From Treponema sp. (GTDB taxonomy: Bacteria > Spirochaetota > Spirochaetia > Treponematales > Treponemataceae): 18,119 nt of DNA. Both the position numbers and the translations under genes were made by a program. This document shows, piece by piece, positions 6,241 through 14,330 of this stretch. The notes beneath the pieces are model-generated. The model made no database searches, was not told the DNA's origin, and saw nothing but the letters and a program-made list of their open reading frames with translations. Each line of letters begins with the position of its first letter. The stretch's first letter is position 1. The DNA is taken from assembly GCA_017617145.1 (NCBI GenBank), contig JAFZWX010000226.1, positions 1 to 18,119 on the forward strand, read 5' to 3'.

Positions 6241-6269
6241 AGATTCCCCGGTCAAGCCGGGGAATGACA
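6241..6269 (+). repeat. Dispersed palindromic repeat, family A, copy 1
   Basis: It begins 2 bases after the carB stop codon. A perfect 9-bp stem, ATTCCCCGG (6243-6251) and CCGGGGAAT (6257-6265), closes a TCAAG loop and is flanked by AG and GACA. The second copy lies in inverse orientation at 6327-6355. Of 29 positions, 22 match, and the seven differences all lie in the stem, where they preserve base pairing. Confidence 0.8.
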
Positions 6270-6274
6270 CCGGG

Positions 6275-6317
6275 GTCCCTGAGGATTGCACTGCGGTACC
6301 TGAGCCTGTCGAAGGGC
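6275..6317 (-). repeat. Dispersed repeat, family B, degenerate copy plus partial tandem copy
   Basis: Positions 6295-6317 read on the minus strand match, at 21 of 23 positions, the repeat found intact at 7493-7515 and 11375-11397. A 10-base piece of the same repeat, GGTCCCTGAG, also occurs at 6275-6284. This suggests a tandem or truncated copy inserted between the two family-A palindromes. Confidence 0.7.
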
Positions 6318-6326
6318 CACACCACA

Positions 6327-6355
6327 TGTCATTGTCGAGCTTGACCCGACAATCT
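6327..6355 (-). repeat. Dispersed palindromic repeat, family A, copy 2 (inverted)
   Basis: On the minus strand it reads AGATTGTCGGG, then TCAAG, then the pairing arm. The stem is 9 bp with one G-T wobble and the loop is the same TCAAG as copy 1. Three pairs (6-22, 7-21 and 9-19 of the repeat) differ from copy 1 on both sides and still pair. Confidence 0.8.
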
Positions 6356-6363
6356 TTCTTATG

Positions 6364-6394
6364 AACGCCAGTTCCAATGGAGCTGGCGTTTTTT
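6364..6394 (+). terminator. Rho-independent terminator downstream of carB
   Basis: AACGCCAGTTCC (6364-6375) pairs with GGAGCTGGCGTT (6379-6390) over 12 bp, including one T-G wobble, with a 3-base loop. The TTTTTT run ends at 6394. It lies about 125 bp after the carB stop, beyond the repeat cluster, and is oriented for plus-strand transcripts. Confidence 0.85.
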
Positions 6395-6421
6395 CGTGAA
6401 GTCGCAAAATGCGACTTCACG
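6395..6421. repeat. Perfect 12-bp hairpin between carB terminator and ORF6N gene
   Basis: CGTGAAGTCGCA (6395-6406) and TGCGACTTCACG (6410-6421) pair perfectly around AAA. It starts immediately after the T-run of the carB terminator and lies 20 bp past the 3' end of the minus-strand ORF6N gene. It has no adjacent T-run on either strand, so it may be an mRNA 3'-end stabiliser, a back-up terminator or another dispersed palindrome. Confidence 0.65.
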
Positions 6422-6441
6422 GACTTCTTGTTATGTTTTTT

Positions 6442-7404
6442 TTACACCACTAAAATCGGATTCTTCTTCAAATCATCTACAATCTTATGATACACTTTTG
6501 TATCTTCAATTTTTGTTATGGTATTGATTTTATTGCCAGAGTCTTTTGACGAGGCTCCACAATGATAGATTTTTTCATCAGGCGTGTTGTAATCAAGTAC
6601 AATATAACGGTCGTGGTAAATGCCGTTGGTCTTTTGAAATGAAAGTTTAATACTAGGATACTCTTTTGTGAAATCCGAGAGTTCAGTTCTATTCAGTCCT
6701 TTGTGAATGTTGTCGGAAAAAACAATAATTTGTACAGCCGTTTTTGCGTATGAAAGCAAGGTGAGAGTTTTTAAGTTTATATAATTATCAATTACATAAA
6801 TCGTTTGTTTTGCTTGCTGATAAATTTTTATATAAGCGGTATCTGCCTCAACTGCTTTGCCGTTTAGAACAAGAACTTCGCGTATAGCCGACAATTCTGA
6901 AAAATCGTTGATTATACTCATAAGGTAATCTTTAGAGACCATCGTTTCTTTTATTTGGGCTATGTCGTCCGTGTTTCTTACAGTCTGAATCGAAAGATTT
7001 GCAAGTTCTGTACCATCAAGGAGTGCACGATTATCAAGAATAAAATCTTTCATTTTTTTGAAGATTCGTATGAGAGCTTTGCTTTGCTGGGTAGCAAGTT
7101 CTCCTTTTAGAACAGTCATAAGCATATAGATTCCCTGTTCAGTAAAGGCATAGGGAAGGTATTTGGAGTATTTTCCTTGTTCTAAGGTCAAAAAATTTGA
7201 CCTTAGAAATTCATTAACTTCATCTTTGGTAAGTTGGAATCTAAAATCCTCATCAAATTTTTCGATATTATTACGAACCTGCTGGTTAAATGCTTTTGTC
7301 GTATATCCGTAGATTTGTGCTAAATCCATATCCAGCATGACTTTAACACCACGGATGGTGTAGATTTTGTTTTCGATTTGTAAGGTTGAAATTTCTTTTT
7401 CCAT
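6442..7404 (-). CDS. ORF6N domain protein with C-terminal PLD-like region (paralog 1)
   Basis: A 320-residue protein. Residues 1-95 form an ORF6N domain, a phage-antirepressor-type DNA-binding module. Its signature is MLDMDLAQIYGYTTKAFNQQ, followed by AFTEQGIYMLMTVLKG, a region shared with RhuM-like proteins. The C-terminal half (about 175-320) looks like a degenerate phospholipase-D fold: VIDNYI near 205, then HDRYIVLD at 264-271, which is HxKx4D with Lys replaced by Arg, then a YHCGASSKDSG loop. A DNA-binding protein with a nucleic-acid or lipid-hydrolase-like tail is inferred. GGAGG sits just before the ATG. It is the paralog of the gene at 13137-14042, and both have the same promoter and leader. 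Its coding region contains the palindrome at 7180-7208. Confidence 0.85.
   Translation of the reverse strand: MEKEISTLQIENKIYTIRGVKVMLDMDLAQIYGYTTKAFNQQVRNNIEKFDEDFRFQLTKDEVNEFLRSNFLTLEQGKYSKYLPYAFTEQGIYMLMTVLKGELATQQSKALIRIFKKMKDFILDNRALLDGTELANLSIQTVRNTDDIAQIKETMVSKDYLMSIINDFSELSAIREVLVLNGKAVEADTAYIKIYQQAKQTIYVIDNYINLKTLTLLSYAKTAVQIIVFSDNIHKGLNRTELSDFTKEYPSIKLSFQKTNGIYHDRYIVLDYNTPDEKIYHCGASSKDSGNKINTITKIEDTKVYHKIVDDLKKNPILVV
7180..7208. repeat. Long palindrome inside ORF6N paralog 1
   Basis: TTCTAAGGTCAAA (7180-7192) and TTTGACCTTAGAA (7196-7208) form a perfect 13-bp stem around AAA. It encodes FLRSNFLTLE in the minus-strand gene. A homologous palindrome lies at the same codons of the second ORF6N gene. 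Confidence 0.8.
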
Positions 7405-7588
7405 ACCATAGCCTCCAGGAGTTTTTGAGATTCAGCGCTTGTCCAACCCCGGGCCTGAATTATGGTAAAGAAAATAAAAGAGATGTTATTAAGCCCTTCG
7501 ACAAGCTCAGGGACCCCGAGAATTATAACCACACATACTAACAAACGCTAATAATTGTTGGATATGACCTTCTGTGCGGTGGCTTTAC
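7405..7588 (-). ncRNA. Conserved 5' leader of ORF6N paralog 1 (candidate structured RNA)
   Basis: The untranslated leader runs about 184 nt from the predicted start of transcription to the ORF6N ATG. Three blocks match the leader of the second ORF6N gene: 7440-7474 (35/35), 7514-7545 (32/32) and 7557-7588 (30/32). Visible pairing in both copies includes an 8-bp helix of TGTGCGGT (7573-7580) with ACCACACA (7528-7535), an inner AACAA/TTGTT helix, and near the ribosome site ATTCAG/CTGAAT. A dispersed repeat (7493-7515) occupies the variable middle. No conserved short peptide is encoded. Confidence 0.55.
7493..7515 (+). repeat. Dispersed repeat, family B, intact copy in ORF6N leader
   Basis: A 23-bp sequence (GCCCTTCGACAAGCTCAGGG then ACC) identical to 11375-11397. 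It lies in the part of the leader where the second ORF6N leader instead has a short GGGC-TGT-GCCC hairpin (14131-14141), so it appears to be an insertion or replacement. Confidence 0.85.
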
Positions 7589-7594
7589 GATTTA

Positions 7595-7623
7595 AATATA
7601 ATGGGTTTTTGGGATAAAGACAA
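7595..7623 (-). promoter_or_regulatory. Promoter of ORF6N paralog 1
   Basis: On the minus strand, TTGTCT (7623-7618), a 17-base spacer and TATATT (7600-7595). The same -35, spacing and -10 precede the second ORF6N gene although the spacer sequence differs, which supports it as a real sigma-70-type promoter. It lies just downstream of the XRE gene stop. Confidence 0.65.
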
Positions 7624-7632
7624 TGGAGAAGA

Positions 7633-7980
7633 TTAAATACTCTCTTTTTTTATTTTATCCAGCATCTTATTTACTCCGTTGCGGATTTCTTCAACAATTT
7701 CGTCAGTCATCTGTGCACGGATTTTTTCATTTTCTGGGGTTTCTTCTATTACGACAGGAGTTTTATCTTGAGGGATGAAAAGCTGATAAACTTCGACATT
7801 TAAGGCATTGGCGATTTTGACAAGGGTATCAGGGCTGGGAAAACGCCTCTTTCCTTCAAAAGCATTTATTGCTTGATAAGAAATTCCAATCTTTTCTGCA
7901 AGAGTTTCTTGTGTGAATTTTCCTGCTCTATAGCGTTTTATATTAGATGCAAACGCTTCATGTAGTTCCTTTTCAGTCAT
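7633..7980 (-). CDS. XRE-family HTH regulator, probable controller of the adjacent R-M genes
   Basis: A 115-residue protein with a Cro/C1-type helix-turn-helix at about residues 12-68 (FTQETLAEKIGISYQAINAF, then FPSPDTLVKIANALNV). A charged, probably coiled-coil tail (about 82-115) may dimerise it. It is divergent from the methylase operon, separated by about 60 bp that hold overlapping promoters and operator-like repeats, so autoregulation and control of the R-M genes is the natural reading. It is slightly longer than typical restriction controller (C) proteins. The ATG at 7980 has no Shine-Dalgarno sequence. The predicted transcript start is about 15 bases upstream, so it would have a very short leader that is itself one of the operator repeats. 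Function is inferred from family and position. Confidence 0.85.
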   Translation of the reverse strand: MTEKELHEAFASNIKRYRAGKFTQETLAEKIGISYQAINAFEGKRRFPSPDTLVKIANALNVEVYQLFIPQDKTPVVIEETPENEKIRAQMTDEIVEEIRNGVNKMLDKIKKESI

Positions 7981-8039: not shown

Positions 8040-8747
8040 ATGCCTACAAATAGTAAGTGTAAAGTAAGAGAATCACAATCTGTAAAGAAATCTTCTCAAA
8101 TCAAATCACGCAAACGAGTTGCAGAAAGAGGCGAAGTTTTTACTGCCGAACGTGAAGTAAAAGCCATGTGCGATCTGGTAAAAGATGAAACAGAACGTAT
8201 AGACAGCCGTTTCTTAGAGCCGGCGTGCGGAGATGGGAACTTTCTGGCAGAAATTCTTGAACGAAAGCTTGCTGTTGTTTCGCGTACTTATGCAAAAAAT
8301 CCAAACGATTGGGAAAAATATTCTGTTGTTGCAGTTAGTTCTGTTTATGGCGTTGACATAATGGCAGACAATGCCGCTATCTGTCGAAACAGGCTATTTG
8401 AAATTTGGCAGAAACAGTATGAACAATATTGCAAAAAATTAACCACAGAGCAAAAGGAAGAAACTAAAAAGTCTGTTCGCTTTATTTTAGAAAGAAACAT
8501 TCTTTTAGGTAATGCTTTAAGTCTAAAAGAAGTAGATGAAAATCAAAATGATAAAACAACTCCAATAATTTTTAGTGAATGGTCGCTCATAGGTACAAAG
8601 CTAAAACGCCGCGACTTTATCTTTAATGATCTTGTAAATAAAAACTACAAAACAAAGCTAGTCTCAGATTCAGGAAATCAAGCAGAAATCTTTTCACCCG
8701 TTCAGGATTACCCGCTCGTCCATTATAGAAAAGTAGGAGAAAGCTAA
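8040..8747 (+). CDS. DNA methylase-like subunit with motif I but no NPPY
   Basis: A 235-residue protein with a basic N-terminus (KSRKRVAERGEVFT) and an AdoMet-binding motif I, FLEPACGDGNFL, at residues 58-69. The DIMADNAAICRNRLFEI region downstream resembles the second strand and helix of N6-adenine methylase folds. The catalytic motif IV (N/D-PP-Y/F) is absent, and the C-terminal part (SEWSLIGTKLKRRDFIFNDL) matches a family often annotated as restriction endonuclease subunit M. I infer it works together with the NPPY-bearing subunit encoded next, overlapping by one base (TAATG). The ATG has no ribosome site but coincides with the predicted transcript start. No better start is visible downstream. 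An operator-like repeat covers codons 2-6. This could also be a regulatory or AdoMet-sensing subunit. Confidence 0.75.
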   Translation: MPTNSKCKVRESQSVKKSSQIKSRKRVAERGEVFTAEREVKAMCDLVKDETERIDSRFLEPACGDGNFLAEILERKLAVVSRTYAKNPNDWEKYSVVAVSSVYGVDIMADNAAICRNRLFEIWQKQYEQYCKKLTTEQKEETKKSVRFILERNILLGNALSLKEVDENQNDKTTPIIFSEWSLIGTKLKRRDFIFNDLVNKNYKTKLVSDSGNQAEIFSPVQDYPLVHYRKVGES

Positions 8748-10276
8748 TGATAGATTCCCTTTATGAAAAAGCCTACAACCCAGATGTTCTAACATGTATT
8801 GCAAATCTTAGCAATGATGAAGTTTTTACTCCACCAAGTGTTGCAAATGCAATGCTCGATTTATTGCCACAAGAAATCTTTAGTAATCCAGATGCAAAGT
8901 TTTTGGACCCGGCCTGTAAGAGTGGAGTTTTTCTTCGTGAAATTGCCAAGCGTCTTTTAAAAGGTTTAAAAGACAAAATTCCTGATTTACAGGAACGTAT
9001 AGACCATATTTTCAAAACCCAGCTTTACGGAATTGCCATAACAGAACTTACAAGTCTTTTGAGTCGTCGTAGTGTTTATTGTTCTAAATATCCTAACTGT
9101 AAATATTCAGTAACTCAATTTGATAATCCCCAGGGAAATATTTTCTTTAACAATACAAAAACAAAACATCTGTGGATAGGTGGGAAATGTCTTCACTGTG
9201 GTGCAAGCGAAAAAGAATATGGTGATGAAGTCAGAGAAGGACTTGAACGCCACGCATACCAGTTTATTCACAACGCAATACCAGGAGAATTAGAAAATAT
9301 GAAGTTTGATGTAATTATTGGGAATCCGCCGTATCAGTTAGAAACAGGGGGAGCTGGAAGGCAAGCAAAGCCTATATATCATCATTTTATTGAACAAGCA
9401 AAAAAACTAAATCCAAGATTTCTTATAATGATTATTCCTTCAAGATGGTTTTCTGGAGGATTTGGATTAGATTCTTTTAGGAATAAAATGTTGAATGATC
9501 GACATTTGATTAAACTTGTAGATTATCCTAATTCTGCAGATGTTTTTTCAGGGGTTGATATTGCTGGTGGAGTTTGTTATTTCAAATGGGATAGAGATCA
9601 CGAATCAGATTGTGAAATCATAAATGTAATAGAAAATAATAAAGACTGTGAAATACGAAAATTAAATGAATACAAAACTTTTGTTCGATTTAATAAATCA
9701 ATTTCGATAATACGAAAAATCTTTTCGATACAAAGTAGAGATATGACTTTAGAATCGGTTGTTTCGCCACAAAGACCTTTTGGATTACCAACTAATTATG
9801 TTCCTCGAGAGAAAGGAATACCATGTTGGTTTATCCAAAAAATTGGAAAGAAATTTGCAGATGAAAAAGATGTTGATGATTCAAATAAATTATTAGATAA
9901 ATGGAAATTTATAGCACCCAAAGCTCCTATTGCAGGGCAAACAGATTTTACTAAGCCAATTGGATTCTATTATGAGGGAAATACAAAAATTGCAAAGCCA
10001 GGCGAATGTTGTACAGAATCTTTTATTGTTCTAGGAGCATTTGATACAGAAAAAGAAGTTTTATCTTATAAATCGTATATATTTACAAAGATAGCTAGAT
10101 TTCTTTTATTGCAAACAGTTATATCACAAGATGTTCTAAGAAATAAATTTTGCTTTGTTCCTAATCTTGAAAAATATGATCATATTTATACTGATGAAGA
10201 ACTCTGTAAAAAATGGGGTATTTCAAAAGCGGAATGGGATTATATTGATTCAAGGATATGCAACATTGAAAGATAA
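8747..10276 (+). CDS. Eco57I-type adenine-specific DNA methylase subunit
   Basis: A 509-residue protein. An FTPPSVANAMLDLL segment precedes a motif-I-like FLDPACKSGVFL at 52-63, in which the usual first Gly is Lys. Catalytic motif IV follows as NPPY at 193-196 (VIIGNPPYQ), as in N6-adenine methylases of the Eco57I group. Between them is a Cys cluster, C112-x5-C118 and C148-x2-C151, that looks like a zinc-ribbon insert. The C-terminal half, from FSGVDIAGGVCYFKW onward, should hold the target-recognition domain. It probably methylates adenine in a specific DNA site to protect the host from the downstream helicase-nuclease. AGGAG (8735-8739) and the TAATG overlap indicate translational coupling to the previous gene. 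Confidence 0.88.
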   Translation: MIDSLYEKAYNPDVLTCIANLSNDEVFTPPSVANAMLDLLPQEIFSNPDAKFLDPACKSGVFLREIAKRLLKGLKDKIPDLQERIDHIFKTQLYGIAITELTSLLSRRSVYCSKYPNCKYSVTQFDNPQGNIFFNNTKTKHLWIGGKCLHCGASEKEYGDEVREGLERHAYQFIHNAIPGELENMKFDVIIGNPPYQLETGGAGRQAKPIYHHFIEQAKKLNPRFLIMIIPSRWFSGGFGLDSFRNKMLNDRHLIKLVDYPNSADVFSGVDIAGGVCYFKWDRDHESDCEIINVIENNKDCEIRKLNEYKTFVRFNKSISIIRKIFSIQSRDMTLESVVSPQRPFGLPTNYVPREKGIPCWFIQKIGKKFADEKDVDDSNKLLDKWKFIAPKAPIAGQTDFTKPIGFYYEGNTKIAKPGECCTESFIVLGAFDTEKEVLSYKSYIFTKIARFLLLQTVISQDVLRNKFCFVPNLEKYDHIYTDEELCKKWGISKAEWDYIDSRICNIER

Positions 10277-10297
10277 CCTTGCTTTAAGGAGAATATA

Positions 10298-12934
10298 ATG
10301 GCATCAACAAAAGACTATATATCAGAAAAACCAAAAGGCAGACCAATCATTTATGCATACCGCGATAAAAATATGCCTGACATTCTTAAAGTAGGTTTTA
10401 CAACTCGAACAGCCGAAGAGCGTGTCGCAGAGCAATATCCAACTTTAAAACCAGGAGAAAAGCCATATCAAATTGTACTTGTAGAAAGTGCATTGGATGA
10501 AAACGGTGAGTCTTTTATGGATCATGATGTTTTTAAAGCACTTGAACGATGTGGTTTTCCTCGGCTTTCTACATCTGATGGTAAAGATATAGAATGGTTT
10601 AGATGTACTGTCGATGATATAAAAAATGCAATTATTTCTGTAAGAATTCATAGTGATGCATTAGAAAATCGTTCGCTTGATTTTAAGATGCGCAAGGAGC
10701 AGGAAGAGGCTGTAAATAAAACTGCTGATTATTATGAGCGCACAACAGAAGAAGGATATATAAAATCTCCAAAATTTTTGTGGAATGCAAAAATGCGTTT
10801 TGGTAAAACCTTTGCTGCTTATCAACTAGCAAAGAAAATGGAGTTCAAAAAAATCCTGATTTTAACTTTTAAACCCGCAGTTCAATCTGCATGGCGGGAT
10901 GATTTATTACGACATGTTGATTTTAGAGGCTGGCAGTTTATTGCGCGCCCTTTGGAAACGGGCGATGCGAGCATTGATGAACAATATCAAAAAGCAGATA
11001 AAGATAAGCCAATTGTTTGTTTTGGTAGCTTTCAGGATTTTCTTGGCCGAAATGAAAACGGTGGAATAAAAGAGAAGAATGAATGGGTTCATACAACAAA
11101 CTGGGATTTAGTCATTTTTGATGAATATCATTTTGGCGCATGGCGCGACAATGCAAAACATCTTTTTGAAAACGAAGATGAAGAAGATATAGATTCAAAA
11201 TCAGAACCAGACAACTTAGGAAATAACATTGACGAAACCTGGCTTCCTATAACTACAAGATATTATCTTTATCTTTCAGGAACTCCATTTAGAGCTTTGA
11301 ACAGCGGTGAATTTATTGAAGAACAGATTTTTTCATGGACATATAGTGATGAACAGCGTGCAAAGGAAGAGTGGGCCCTTCGACAAGCTCAGGGACCGCG
11401 CGTGGATAGTTCAGCAGCCGTGGAAAATCCGTATGCGGCGCTGCCAAAAATGATTATGTTCACTTACAAGATTCCGGATTCAATTCAGGAAATTGCAAAG
11501 GGGGGTGAATATGATGAGTTTGATTTAAATGAATTCTTCCGTGCAGAGTTAAAAGAAAACAATAAGGTAGAGTCGGCACAGTATGTTCATAAAGAATATG
11601 TTCAAAAATGGCTCAATTTGATTCGGGGTTCTTTTACCGAGACTGCAGTTGATGACCTGAAGCTTGGGGCAGAACGTCCACCTATGCCTTTTAGCGACAC
11701 ACTTTTAATGGGAGTTCTGAATCATACATTATGGTTTTTACCAAATGTTGCATCCTGTTATGCAATGAAAAATCTTTTGGAAGAAAAACAAAATCTGTTT
11801 TATCAGGAATATAAAATAATTGTTTGTGCGGGTACTAAAGCTGGAATTGGTCTTGGTGCACTCCCACCTGTTCTTAAAGGAATTGCAAATGGAACAAGTG
11901 GAACAGAATGTAATCCTCTTAAAACAAAATCTATAACTTTGTCTTGTGGAAAGCTTACAACAGGTGTAACGATAAGACCCTGGTCTGGAATTTTCATGTT
12001 GAGAAACCTTAATTCACCAGAAACATATTTTCAGTCGGCTTTTAGAGTTCAGTCTCCGTGGACAATTCTAAATGAAAAAGGCGAAACAGAAATCGTAAAA
12101 AAAGAATGCTTTGTTTTTGACTTTGCTCTGAATCGAGCGCTTAGACAGATTTCTGATTATGCAAGAAATCTCAGTGTAGATACGGGAGATACAAGTCAGG
12201 ATAACAGCCCGGAAGTAAAAGTTGCAAAATTCATTCAATTTTTACCGGTACTTGCTTATGACGGTTCTAGTATGACTCAGGTAAATGCTGCTGAGATTCT
12301 TGATATTGCAATGGCGGGAACAACAGCAACGCTTCTTGCTAAACGATGGGAAAGTGCTCTTCTTGTAAATGTTGATAATGAAACTTTACTGCGTCTTAAA
12401 GATAATCAGGAAGCAATGGATGCCCTGATGAAAATTGAAGGTTTCCGCAGTTTGAACAAAGAAATAGAGACAATTATTAATAAGAGTGAGAAAATCAAGA
12501 ATGCTAAAACTCAGGAAAAAGAACAGACTCAAGAAGAAAAGCGTGAAGTAAGTCAGGAAGAAAAAGAAATGAAGAGTCTTAGGAAACAGATACAGGAAAA
12601 GCTCATAAAATTTGCAACTCGCATTCCAGTTTTTATGTATCTAAGTGATTATCGGGAACACTCATTAAAGGATGTCATAACACAGCTTGAACCTCAGCTC
12701 TTTTATAAAGTAACTGGATTAACTGTAAAGGATTTTGAATTGTTAGTAAGCCTTAATGTGTTTAATGCAAACATAATGGATCAGGCAGTTTACAGCTTTA
12801 AACGATATGAAGATTCAAGTCTTTCTTATACTGGTATCGATCGACACGAAGGTGAGAGCGTAGGTCTCTTTAGTACAGTTCTTAGTGCACAGGATTACAA
12901 AGACTTAGCACAGGCACAAGGGTTGAGTGTTTAG
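10298..12934 (+). CDS. GIY-YIG/T5orf172 nuclease fused to SF2 helicase, restriction subunit
   Basis: An 878-residue protein and the probable restriction component of the cassette. Residues 15-105 match the T5orf172/Mug113 form of the GIY-YIG nuclease: IIYAY (17-21), LKVGFTTR (30-37), a basic residue at R42, H76, and EWF at 99-101. A superfamily 2 motor follows: Walker A MRFGKT (166-171), a DEYH box (275-278), SGTPF (327-331), and a motif-VI-like FRVQSPW (582-588). A charged coiled-coil stretch lies at about 725-775 and a C-terminal domain ends the protein. ATP-driven translocation with DNA cleavage is inferred from the family. AAGGAG (10286-10291) precedes the ATG, 21 bp after the methylase stop. 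Residues 360-366 (LRQAQGP) come from a dispersed DNA repeat inserted in frame. Confidence 0.85.
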   Translation: MASTKDYISEKPKGRPIIYAYRDKNMPDILKVGFTTRTAEERVAEQYPTLKPGEKPYQIVLVESALDENGESFMDHDVFKALERCGFPRLSTSDGKDIEWFRCTVDDIKNAIISVRIHSDALENRSLDFKMRKEQEEAVNKTADYYERTTEEGYIKSPKFLWNAKMRFGKTFAAYQLAKKMEFKKILILTFKPAVQSAWRDDLLRHVDFRGWQFIARPLETGDASIDEQYQKADKDKPIVCFGSFQDFLGRNENGGIKEKNEWVHTTNWDLVIFDEYHFGAWRDNAKHLFENEDEEDIDSKSEPDNLGNNIDETWLPITTRYYLYLSGTPFRALNSGEFIEEQIFSWTYSDEQRAKEEWALRQAQGPRVDSSAAVENPYAALPKMIMFTYKIPDSIQEIAKGGEYDEFDLNEFFRAELKENNKVESAQYVHKEYVQKWLNLIRGSFTETAVDDLKLGAERPPMPFSDTLLMGVLNHTLWFLPNVASCYAMKNLLEEKQNLFYQEYKIIVCAGTKAGIGLGALPPVLKGIANGTSGTECNPLKTKSITLSCGKLTTGVTIRPWSGIFMLRNLNSPETYFQSAFRVQSPWTILNEKGETEIVKKECFVFDFALNRALRQISDYARNLSVDTGDTSQDNSPEVKVAKFIQFLPVLAYDGSSMTQVNAAEILDIAMAGTTATLLAKRWESALLVNVDNETLLRLKDNQEAMDALMKIEGFRSLNKEIETIINKSEKIKNAKTQEKEQTQEEKREVSQEEKEMKSLRKQIQEKLIKFATRIPVFMYLSDYREHSLKDVITQLEPQLFYKVTGLTVKDFELLVSLNVFNANIMDQAVYSFKRYEDSSLSYTGIDRHEGESVGLFSTVLSAQDYKDLAQAQGLSV
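11375..11397 (+). repeat. Dispersed repeat, family B, in frame within helicase gene
   Basis: This 23-bp sequence is identical to 7493-7515. It lies between helicase motif III and the second RecA domain and is read as LRQAQGP without breaking the frame. The following VDSSAAVE stretch may belong to the same insertion. Confidence 0.9.
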
Positions 12935-13136: not shown

Positions 13137-14042
13137 TTATAGATTCCCCAAAATCATCGGAATGAAACTAGAATCCAGTATACTAAATCCAAAACACTTT
13201 TTACCCAAATCTTTTAACGAAGCTCCAATGTGATAAATCGTAGAGTTATCAATAATCAAAAATCTGTCGTGAGTTTTTGTTGTGTGATTTACAGTAAGGG
13301 TAGGGTATTGGGTGTTGAATGTGTGAATATCCTGCGCTGTTAGTTTTGTCTTGGGGTCGGTGTAAATTGTTACAGTAACACCTTTTTTCTTTCTTGCAAG
13401 GCGCTGAAGAATGGACAAGTCTACATAATTGTCTATTAGTATGATTTCCTTCTTTGCGGCAGCCAGAAAGCTTTCGAACTTTGCATAGGCATCGAAAATT
13501 TGTCCTTGAAAGAAGATGCCTTGAGATTCTTTTATATTGTATTTATCCATTAAAGAAAAGAGCTCTTGGACTTTTTTATCAGTTTCTTTGTGGTGTAAAT
13601 CTGACTCCAAAAGATGCTTTTTTATATCATCAAGTTCGACAAAAATATGAGAATTATTCTGAACAAAATGTTTCATTTCTTTGAATGTTCTTATCAGCAT
13701 TTTACTTTGGGCAACGGCTAGGTCACCTTTGAGGACGGTCATTAACATGTAGATTCCCTGCTCGGTAAAAGCCTTTGGTGCATATTTTATATTACTGCCA
13801 CGTCCACTCTTCAAGGTCGAAAATTTCGACCTTGAAAGTTCTTGTATCTCAGTTTCTGATAATTGGAACATAAAATCTTCATCAAAGCGTTCTATATTAT
13901 TTTTTACTTGTTCGTTAAATCGTTTCGTTTCATATCCATAAATCTGAGCTAAATCAAAATCCAGCATAACCTGCTGCCCGCGAATAACATGAATCTTTGA
14001 ACGAATGGAGTTTTCTTCTAGAATTGAAATTTCATTTTCCAT
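13137..14042 (-). CDS. ORF6N domain protein with C-terminal PLD-like region (paralog 2)
   Basis: A 301-residue paralog of the gene at 6442-7404, with the same layout. The N-terminal ORF6N domain (VMLDFDLAQIYGYETKRFNE, then KAFTEQGIYMLMTVLKGDLA) is joined by a helical linker (about 110-175) to a C-terminal PLD-like part: ILIDNYVD near 200, HDRFLIID starting at H258 (HxRx4D), and IYHIGASLKDLG. The two proteins are clearly homologous but much diverged, the linkers most of all. It is on the minus strand and convergent with the R-M operon, whose terminator lies at 13061-13108. A GAGGA ribosome site precedes the ATG, and the promoter and leader are the same type as those of paralog 1. The coding region contains a 27-bp palindrome (13810-13836). 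Confidence 0.85.
   Translation of the reverse strand: MENEISILEENSIRSKIHVIRGQQVMLDFDLAQIYGYETKRFNEQVKNNIERFDEDFMFQLSETEIQELSRSKFSTLKSGRGSNIKYAPKAFTEQGIYMLMTVLKGDLAVAQSKMLIRTFKEMKHFVQNNSHIFVELDDIKKHLLESDLHHKETDKKVQELFSLMDKYNIKESQGIFFQGQIFDAYAKFESFLAAAKKEIILIDNYVDLSILQRLARKKKGVTVTIYTDPKTKLTAQDIHTFNTQYPTLTVNHTTKTHDRFLIIDNSTIYHIGASLKDLGKKCFGFSILDSSFIPMILGNL
13810..13836. repeat. Long palindrome inside ORF6N paralog 2
   Basis: A perfect 13-bp dyad around one central base: TTCAAGGTCGAAA and TTTCGACCTTGAA. In the minus-strand gene it encodes the SRSKFSTL region, the same codons as the palindrome at 7180-7208. Relative to that copy, A-T to G-C and other arm changes are matched on both sides. Confidence 0.85.
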
Positions 14043-14215
14043 ACCACATCCTCAAGAGTTTTTTAGGTTTTCAGCGCCTGTCCAACCCCGGGCCTGAATT
14101 ATGGTAAAGAAAAATAAAAGATATTAGAAAGGGCTGTGCCCCCGAGAATTATAACCACACATACTAACAAATGGGGATAAGTTGTTGGAAATGACCTTCT
14201 GTGCGGTAGCTTTAC
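14043..14215 (-). ncRNA. Conserved 5' leader of ORF6N paralog 2 (candidate structured RNA)
   Basis: A leader of about 173 nt matching that of paralog 1 in three blocks: 14079-14113, 14140-14171 and 14184-14215. The helix TGTGCGGT (14200-14207) with ACCACACA (14154-14161) is conserved, as are an AACAA/TTGTT inner helix with a different loop and a TTCAG/CTGAA helix near the ribosome site. The variable middle carries a small hairpin GGGC-TGT-GCCC (14131-14141) where copy 1 has a dispersed repeat. Confidence 0.55.
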
Positions 14216-14221
14216 ATATTT

Positions 14222-14250
14222 AATATAATAATTATTTAAAATAAAGACAA
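14222..14250 (-). promoter_or_regulatory. Promoter of ORF6N paralog 2
   Basis: On the minus strand, TTGTCT (14250-14245), a 17-base spacer, TATATT (14227-14222). Elements and spacing are identical to the promoter at 7595-7623, while the spacer sequences differ. It lies back to back with the GNAT promoter. Confidence 0.65.
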
Positions 14251-14260
14251 TTATAATCCA

Positions 14261-14288
14261 TTGTAAATCTCCAAAATCATGTTATGAT
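14261..14288 (+). promoter_or_regulatory. Promoter of the GNAT / AmmeMemoRadiSam operon
   Basis: TTGTAA (14261-14266), 16 bases, TATGAT (14283-14288) with an upstream TG giving an extended -10. The -35 is only 10 bp from the -35 of the divergent ORF6N promoter. Confidence 0.5.
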
Positions 14289-14330
14289 AGAAAAGACGTT
14301 GCGAAGATTTTTTGGAGGAGGCGGCGACGA

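Follow-up and report, generated by a model that had tools for sequence, protein, structure and literature searches.

Ahead of two ORF6N genes in an 18,119-nucleotide stretch of Treponema sp. DNA (the window) stands a leader that, judged by comparison with its relatives, is a real structured RNA family, unmatched in Rfam for the leaders tested, and ties together different phage-defence candidates. That the leader is both a structured and a cis-regulatory RNA is well supported by the comparative evidence. We think it probable that this element, about 130 to 200 nt from GUAAAG to P3, acts as a cis-regulatory 5′ leader RNA and as a translational switch with two folds for stand-alone phage-defence-candidate genes of rumen and gut Treponema. 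Comparison across units reveals three nested helices, a loop-loop pseudoknot, a constant position downstream of the promoter and upstream of the start codon, and an association with four Pfam/PADLOC families, and we infer from folding models that the RNA would switch between one fold with P1 and the pseudoknot (ON) and another with a helix over the start codon (OFF).

Two copies of the leader in the window

The initial annotation of the window had described one promoter common to both ORF6N genes and a leader better conserved than the coding sequence below it, and both observations hold. The copies, at 7405-7623 and 14043-14250 on the minus strand, each carry TTGTCT-17-TATATT, and two of the conserved blocks are identical at 35/35 (7440-7474 versus 14079-14113) and 30/32 positions (7557-7588 versus 14184-14215); the middle block, placed by our analysis at 7515-7546, is 31/32 identical between the copies. 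Global alignments with gaps set aside give 152/169 identical positions for the leader versus 582/854 for the coding sequence, and the two proteins are 42% identical. Transcription of copy 1 probably starts near position 7588. The coordinates of both copies and their parts are collected in Table 1.

Table 1. Positions of the two leader-ORF6N units and of their parts in the window
Feature	Position	Strand	Evidence or detail
Copy 1 promoter	7595..7623	-	-35 TTGTCT (7623-7618), -10 TATATT (7600-7595); consensus scan
Copy 1 leader RNA	7428..7588	-	covariance model R1 match, 106.6 bits
Copy 1 P1 5′ strand GUAAAG	7583..7588	-	structure model; coordinates read off sequence
Copy 1 P1 3′ strand CUUUAC	7465..7470	-	structure model and covariation; coordinates read off sequence
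Copy 1 P2 5′ strand ACCGCACA	7573..7580	-	structure model and covariation
Copy 1 P2 3′ strand UGUGUGGU	7528..7535	-	structure model and covariation
Copy 1 pseudoknot 5′ strand UCCAAC, P2 loop	7557..7562	-	structure model and covariation
Copy 1 pseudoknot 3′ strand GUUGGA, P3 loop	7442..7447	-	structure model and covariation
Copy 1 P3 hairpin	7431..7459	-	5′ strand UUCAGGCC 7459-7452; 3′ strand 7439-7431, bulged G
Dispersed repeat in copy 1 P2/P1 spacer	7493..7518	-	insertion, outside the element proper
Copy 1 block UUUUCUUUACCAUA	7461..7474	-	predicted OFF strand, able to pair with start region
Copy 1 start region UAUGGUAUGGAAAA	7397..7410	-	predicted partner of 7461-7474
ORF6N gene, PADLOC PDC-S05	6442..7404	-	Pfam 1e-32, PADLOC 2.5e-104
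Copy 2 promoter	14222..14250	-	-35 TTGTCT, -10 TATATT
Copy 2 leader RNA	14067..14215	-	covariance model R1 match, 122.5 bits
ORF6N gene, PADLOC PDC-S05	13137..14042	-	Pfam 1e-32, PADLOC 1.3e-116

The repeat in the copy 1 spacer is unrelated to the leader element: repeats around CTTCGACAAGCTCAGG are dispersed in the window (6293-6318, 7493-7518 and 11374-11400) and through many genomes of the genus. By their PADLOC model, the PDC-S05 (ORF6N) proteins are phage-defence candidates. An HxRx4D PLD-like motif can be seen by eye in an alignment at the C terminus of the protein encoded at 13137..14042. Sequence search returned no relative of the ORF6N protein with a solved structure, and its AlphaFold model has a mean pLDDT of 72.6 and a pTM of 0.41.

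Structure, covariation and position of the leader

The leader RNA is composed of helix P1 (GUAAAG/CUUUAC), helix P2 of 8 bp, helix P3 of 5 + 3 bp with a bulged G, and a pseudoknot that joins UCCAAC in the P2 loop to GUUGGA in the P3 loop. P2 is the 8-bp helix drawn in the initial annotation, and it is real and covaries, but the AACAA/TTGTT helix drawn inside it is possible in just 12 of the 58 relatives tested and hence not conserved, and its 5′ side runs into the pseudoknot strand, which is conserved. That annotation had not picked up P1, P3 or the pseudoknot, nor the possible pairing with the start codon.

Across 26 sequences, 98.4% of 728 cells are paired, compared with 92.6% in shuffled alignments and 33-46% with slid partners. 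Double changes occur in 11 of the 28 pairs, and the covariation score is 0.262 (0.140 shuffled, 0.021-0.107 slid). Weighing against the structure, the count of further pair types, 26, was matched by 40 of 500 shuffles. Parsimony on a tree of 61 distinct sequences (from 67 rows, after dropping L032 at a contig end, the decayed L098, L099 and L102, and two duplicates) yields 30 double changes, distributed as 1 in P1, 19 in P2, 7 in P3 and 3 in the pseudoknot, along with 38 single changes that keep the pair and 19 breaks; P1 is nearly invariant, five of its six pairs never changing. With a tree-based test that uses a home-made, R-scape-like null, the top two column pairs overall are one P2 pair and the A-U/G-C pair of the pseudoknot, at E values of 0.18 and 2.0 over all pairs and of 0.0005 and 0.0052 when the test is restricted to the 28 proposed pairs, and the third-ranked column pair (126-137, E 8.7) lies outside the proposed structure. 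The pseudoknot strands are fully matched in 59 of the 61 sequences, the exceptions being one mismatch and L139, which is without the 5′ strand. Wobbles are G-U on the mRNA strand, which is therefore the folding strand. When leader L037 is folded without the start region, its minimum free energy (MFE) structure has P1, P2 and P3, with a z score of -0.55 and 60 of 200 shuffles folding as well.

The leader fills the whole stretch from the probable transcription start to the ribosome binding site (RBS). All 58 units have a TAWNNT hexamer 4-9 nt ahead of GTAAA, and in 56 of 58 the end of GUUGGA is 35-40 nt upstream of the start codon; P3 ends some 11 nt past GUUGGA. Between promoter and gene, the mRNA (minus) strand of both window copies (14000-14320 and 6250-7680) contains no terminator-like site. 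With no terminator-like site in the window copies and with GUUGGA and P3 so near the start codon, the element is most naturally read as controlling translation. A leader peptide was considered and rejected: only 30/58 units keep the TTT-ACC frame open as far as the start codon, the phase is shifted in 10/58, and distances to the ATG occur in all three phases. Some out-of-frame ORF of 25 or more codons does occur in 43/58 units.

Distribution in Treponema and beyond

Covariance model R1, built from 26 sequences, gave 47 matches in 33 of 146 Treponema genomes, two of them partial or weak (G047:C32 with 53.5 bits and G143 with 37 bits). BLAST of the leader located a third copy in the window's own genome, where the gene behind it is DinD rather than ORF6N. 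It also gave leader-like matches in other Treponema genomes, many further rows being the dispersed repeat alone. Scans with R1 found no leader outside the genus among the genera sampled in its family, order and phylum. Across the phylum (392 genomes, with stricter filters and 8 candidates scored per genome), matches came from 13 genomes, all of the own genus, or 1 of 167 genera; laxer filters gave matches in 2/40 genomes and 1/20 genera for the family and in 2/38 genomes and 1/25 genera for the order, again in the own genus only. A degenerate pattern derived from known leaders matched 53 stretches of GTDB contigs, and every record concerned bears the name Treponema, Treponemataceae, Spirochaetaceae or Spirochaetales. 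By their titles many are MAGs from ruminant guts; T. bryantii and T. ruminis are included, and the leader is present in T. bryantii strains XBD1002 and NK4A124 and in T. ruminis RU1.

We searched four leaders (the two window copies, L018 and L037) against the 4227 families of Rfam 15. There were no matches at gathering in the window, both copies included; the matches of L018 and L037 at E up to 1 fall only outside the leader, and at E up to 10 the region 14030-14270 had one match, to CRISPR-DR17, of 16.6 bits against a cut-off of 42. This agrees with the initial annotation, which had recognised no known riboswitch or leader family. Its suggestion of a functional RNA is likewise supported by the recurrence in 33 of 146 genomes, the proportion of paired cells and the double changes in four helices. 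Gene conversion, which it had offered as another explanation, or a recent duplication between the two copies can be rejected because the leader is widespread, covaries and also stands before other genes, and the leader is not the ORF6N feature that it had been taken for, as 23 of 58 units precede other gene types (labels assigned in this analysis).

Several incomplete units were recovered. Decayed leader copies with internal deletions are found in L098 (1501-1616), L099 (1501-1595) and L102 (1501-1625), the last of which passes from AGTATGTG straight into the gene start, and L139 (1867-2014) is an ORF6N unit that retains the 3′ half of the leader only (block, P3 and GTTGGA), its 5′ half being unrelated. 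Reading by eye also showed an inverted repeat, GC-rich and of the type AACGCCAG...CTGGCGTT, at 6363-6423 and past the stop of L043, L124, L147, L108, L129, L110, L111 and L127; after ORF6N genes it is probably a terminator and possibly a shared unit end.

The distribution also bears on whether the element is a regulator at all, or instead a mobile-element end, an integron attC site or a gene conversion tract kept by recombination, which we regard as extremely improbable. TCCAAC...GTTGGAC does resemble attC core sites, the units are scattered and some have decayed, and the inverted repeat past the stop codon of the eight listed ORF6N units could be a shared end. However, the element lies 5′ of the gene, between promoter and RBS, its compensating changes, in which the mRNA strand shows G-U wobbles, are those expected of an RNA, and the GTT is not invariant, with GCT in 10 of 60. 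Inspection of 60 units by eye revealed no shared ends upstream of the promoter or past the stop besides that inverted repeat, the degenerate pattern had zero matches in viral contigs, and blastn of copy 2 had zero matches in phage and plasmid records. Integron cassettes would have a 3′ site per gene in a cassette array; the leader is 5′, with a promoter, and its matches are scattered.

One leader for several gene families

We collected 62 leaders, 60 of them with a readable gene start, and analysed 59 downstream proteins (alignment A3, comprising the 60 genes minus L141, of 35 aa, and L151, the same as L089, plus window copy 2). Pfam assigns 35 of these to ORF6N, 14 to Bro-N, 3 to DUF1016_N and 2 to KilA-N, and among the other five are a 157-aa protein of T. 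ruminis and frames that are truncated or remnants. Among the PADLOC matches listed (25 of 43 families), 35 proteins match PDC-S05, 15 PDC-S13 and 3 PDC-S02, and PDC-S22 is matched by L063, one leader-linked KilA-N gene that was tested singly. The leader precedes ORF6N, Bro-N/DinD, YhcG and KilA-N genes, which match PADLOC candidates PDC-S05, S13, S02 and S22, respectively, and belong to different Pfam families. YhcG is a PDDEXK nuclease family. ORF6N, Bro-N and KilA-N may be distantly related; in DinD, the Bro-N part is also hit by one PDC-S05 model.

Leaders that are 90-94% identical stand before KilA-N and Bro-N genes. The best leader tree requires at least 13 gene-family changes, versus a minimum of 5, and the 14 of its 55 inner branches that have good support by themselves call for 4 or more changes in the case of Bro-N. 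Of 120 ORF6N genes from 55 of 146 genomes, a count that includes genes cut by contig ends, 25 have a leader detected in the 150 nt upstream and the other 95 have none detected. Rescanning 24 of 30 leaderless ORF6N loci and the C7 copy of the own genome with a laxer filter gave a sole match of 14.3 bits (E 2, L182), and several leaderless ORF6N genes directly follow an upstream gene, as read by eye. The family changes on the leader tree and the mostly leaderless ORF6N genes together indicate a modular leader that has joined stand-alone genes of defence type on more than one occasion. Since the same folded leader is found before several kinds of gene, one shared RNA device probably controls them.

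Two leader-linked frames, L120 (1173-1532) and L126 (4002-4295), run from the leader and the first Bro-N codons into a short frame with an end that by eye is RelB/Phd-type antitoxin-like; the short-frame product of L120 has zero matches in Pfam, NCBIfam and PADLOC. In T. ruminis (L115, 6089-6723), the leader lies before the 157-aa protein, followed by mcsA/mcsB-like genes, and that protein has no Pfam or PADLOC match and an NCBIfam match far below cut-off.

The range of downstream products also informs two readings other than a switch. Under one of these, the pseudoknot would be bound by the gene product or by a host protein of RNA-binding or ribosomal type, which would repress or activate translation. 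A conserved structure with few conserved loop bases would suit such a leader, as protein sites require little sequence. Autoregulation by the product is unlikely because four different product families share the leader, an objection that is limited by the possible distant relationship of ORF6N, Bro-N and KilA-N, and a common host protein is possible as the binder; we judge a protein-binding leader unlikely overall. The other is a pair resembling type III toxin-antitoxin systems, where the pseudoknotted RNA would bind and neutralise the downstream protein. Here too, as with ToxI RNAs, a pseudoknotted RNA comes immediately ahead of a putative defence effector and shares one promoter with it, but among the repeats listed none forms an array within the leader, neither window copy shows a terminator-like site that would separate RNA from gene, and the same RNA stands before four different protein families; this reading strikes us as very unlikely.

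With respect to the genomic surroundings, the stretch between the two leader-ORF6N units of the window (8040-12934) contains an apparent restriction-modification system made up of an MmeI/Eco57I-type methylase pair and a protein of 878 aa in which T5orf172 (GIY-YIG-like) and ResIII helicase domains are recognised. A divergent HTH_3 gene is located at 7633-7980, and a KilA-N gene at 2118-2918 (PDC-S22, 1.3e-128) stands in the same window without such a leader. Genome G019 has two leaders at about the same 6.6 kb spacing as in the window. In a defence-island test on 117 neighbouring proteins from 38 loci, the best 25 of 126 matching PADLOC families have at most 5 members (GajB/UvrD 2, RTasHel 2, type IIG 2 and HTH_VI 5 among the matches listed), most of the 25 Pfam families listed, out of 107, are ordinary, and no recurring single defence system near the leaders appears among the matches listed for the 38 loci.

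Predicted pairing with the start codon

The block of the P1 3′ strand, UUUUCUUUACC, is complementary to GGUAUGGAAAA at the start codon with one U-U mismatch. We counted this start helix in 56 of the 58 units, leaving out L131 and L027. GGTATGG is present at the start of 48/56 leader genes versus 6/182 other mechanical ORFs, and the duplex between a unit's own block and start averages -12.6 kcal/mol, compared with -5.3 at the starts of those 182 ORFs and -6.2 at 560 shuffled starts. The core start helix (at least 8/9 pairs) is found in 50 of the 56 units, which are not independent evidence one by one because the start region is inherited with the leader, and it is absent in both KilA-N units, all three DinD units and T. 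ruminis. The core has undergone no double change; in the three outer pairs we count 1 double change, 6 single changes that preserve pairing and 16 breaks. Permutations that swap starts between units gave a mean at or below that of the own pairings only 2 times in 2000, and 43 times in 2000 among 32 ORF6N-type starts. Where the leader has ACCAUA, UAUGGU or UGUGGU tends to precede the start, and where it has ACCACA, UGUGGU is often found there.

Forcing P1 to form raises the accessibility of the RBS and AUG in 50/58 units and lowers it in 2, and the bases outside P1 with a partner only in the predicted start helix (UUUU and C) are 92-100% conserved. Single-sequence folding with the start region included gives P1 a mean probability of 0.00 and prefers the start-blocking helix; even with a crude pseudoknot bonus, the ON fold lies on average 3.3 kcal/mol higher than the MFE and wins in just 8/56 units.

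In the mechanism that we propose, the start codon would be free when P1 and the P2-P3 pseudoknot have formed (ON). Opening of P1 would let its 3′ strand UUUUCUUUACC pair with GGUAUGGAAAA over the start codon (OFF), predicted to be the thermodynamically cheaper fold, and a signal stabilising the pseudoknotted fold, whether a ligand, a protein, a partner RNA or co-transcriptional folding, would turn the gene on. Unpaired columns are poorly conserved, with 12/93 at 90% or more (spacer included), and a protein, an RNA or folding kinetics may therefore be as likely as a small ligand to shift the balance of folds; the few conserved unpaired columns argue weakly against a classical metabolite aptamer.

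Comparison with known regulatory RNAs

The leader shares with riboswitches a conserved, structured 5′ position with covariation. In addition, it resembles translational riboswitches whose aptamers have loop-loop contacts or pseudoknots in its closing P1, its two hairpins in loop-loop contact and a P1 strand predicted to be able to pair with the start region, but differs from them in having few conserved unpaired bases, an occurrence seen in one bacterial genus and targets that are not metabolic.

The C4 antisense RNA of phages P1 and P7 is an Rfam family, and in phage P1 it is cotranscribed and lies upstream of the antirepressor gene ant. Two published accounts describe C4 as targeting the ant mRNA in the region of the ribosome binding site, the complementary stretches probably being in loops (PMC12197685; PMC8201110). 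C4 of P1 is the closest functional analogue of the leader, yet it is a phage antisense RNA that acts around the RBS. Both C4 of P1/P7 and the sar RNA of P22 are small structured RNAs controlling the translation of antirepressor-type (KilA/Ant/Bro-like) genes, a role comparable to the one proposed for the leader; in contrast to them, the leader spans families, its pairing looks cis and pseudoknotted, and its genes are chromosomal phage-defence candidates that include a PDDEXK nuclease family.

We hold it improbable that the leader itself works in the manner of C4, its 5′ domain being cut off as a small RNA and UCCAAC pairing in trans with GUUGGA of the same or other units. The layout is similar, with an RNA ahead of Ant/KilA-type genes and a complementary loop upstream of the start, but the four leaders searched have no Rfam match above threshold to C4 or any other family, GUUGGA at its distance from the start codon is off the RBS, and no isolated 5′ domain that is intact was seen among the 47 R1 matches, such domains being partial. 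Furthermore, genomes G015, G050 and G354 hold both A-U and G-C versions of the pseudoknot and each unit keeps its own matching strands, so that the pairing is best read as cis.

The genes behind the leader match the protein models of PADLOC candidates PDC-S02, S05, S13 and S22 strongly, but most ORF6N genes in the sampled genomes are without a detected leader. A search of open-licence papers, at the level of listings and excerpts, showed no leader RNA that we recognised as belonging to these genes. Excerpts of a study of bovine rumen genomes place PDC-S05, S02 and S04 among the frequent candidates generally, with Treponema unmentioned in those excerpts (PMC13356809), and parts of a human-microbiome study name Treponema leader motifs for ribosomal proteins L7/L12 and L20 (PMC8040213).

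Possible meaning for phage defence in Treponema

In our judgement, the off/on control of single-gene phage-defence systems is largely open. We put forward, tentatively and as a doubtful idea, an RNA-run defence regulon in which a pseudoknotted switch, moved as a module between different phage-defence genes, would silence them by hiding the start codon and release them on sensing phage infection or DNA damage, DinD being among the targets. The defined pseudoknot, P1 and start helix offer precise mutants for testing such sensing. An RNA family of defined structure, found in named strains among others, links four defence-candidate families, and the leader provides a sequence mark for locating further defence-type genes in rumen Treponema.
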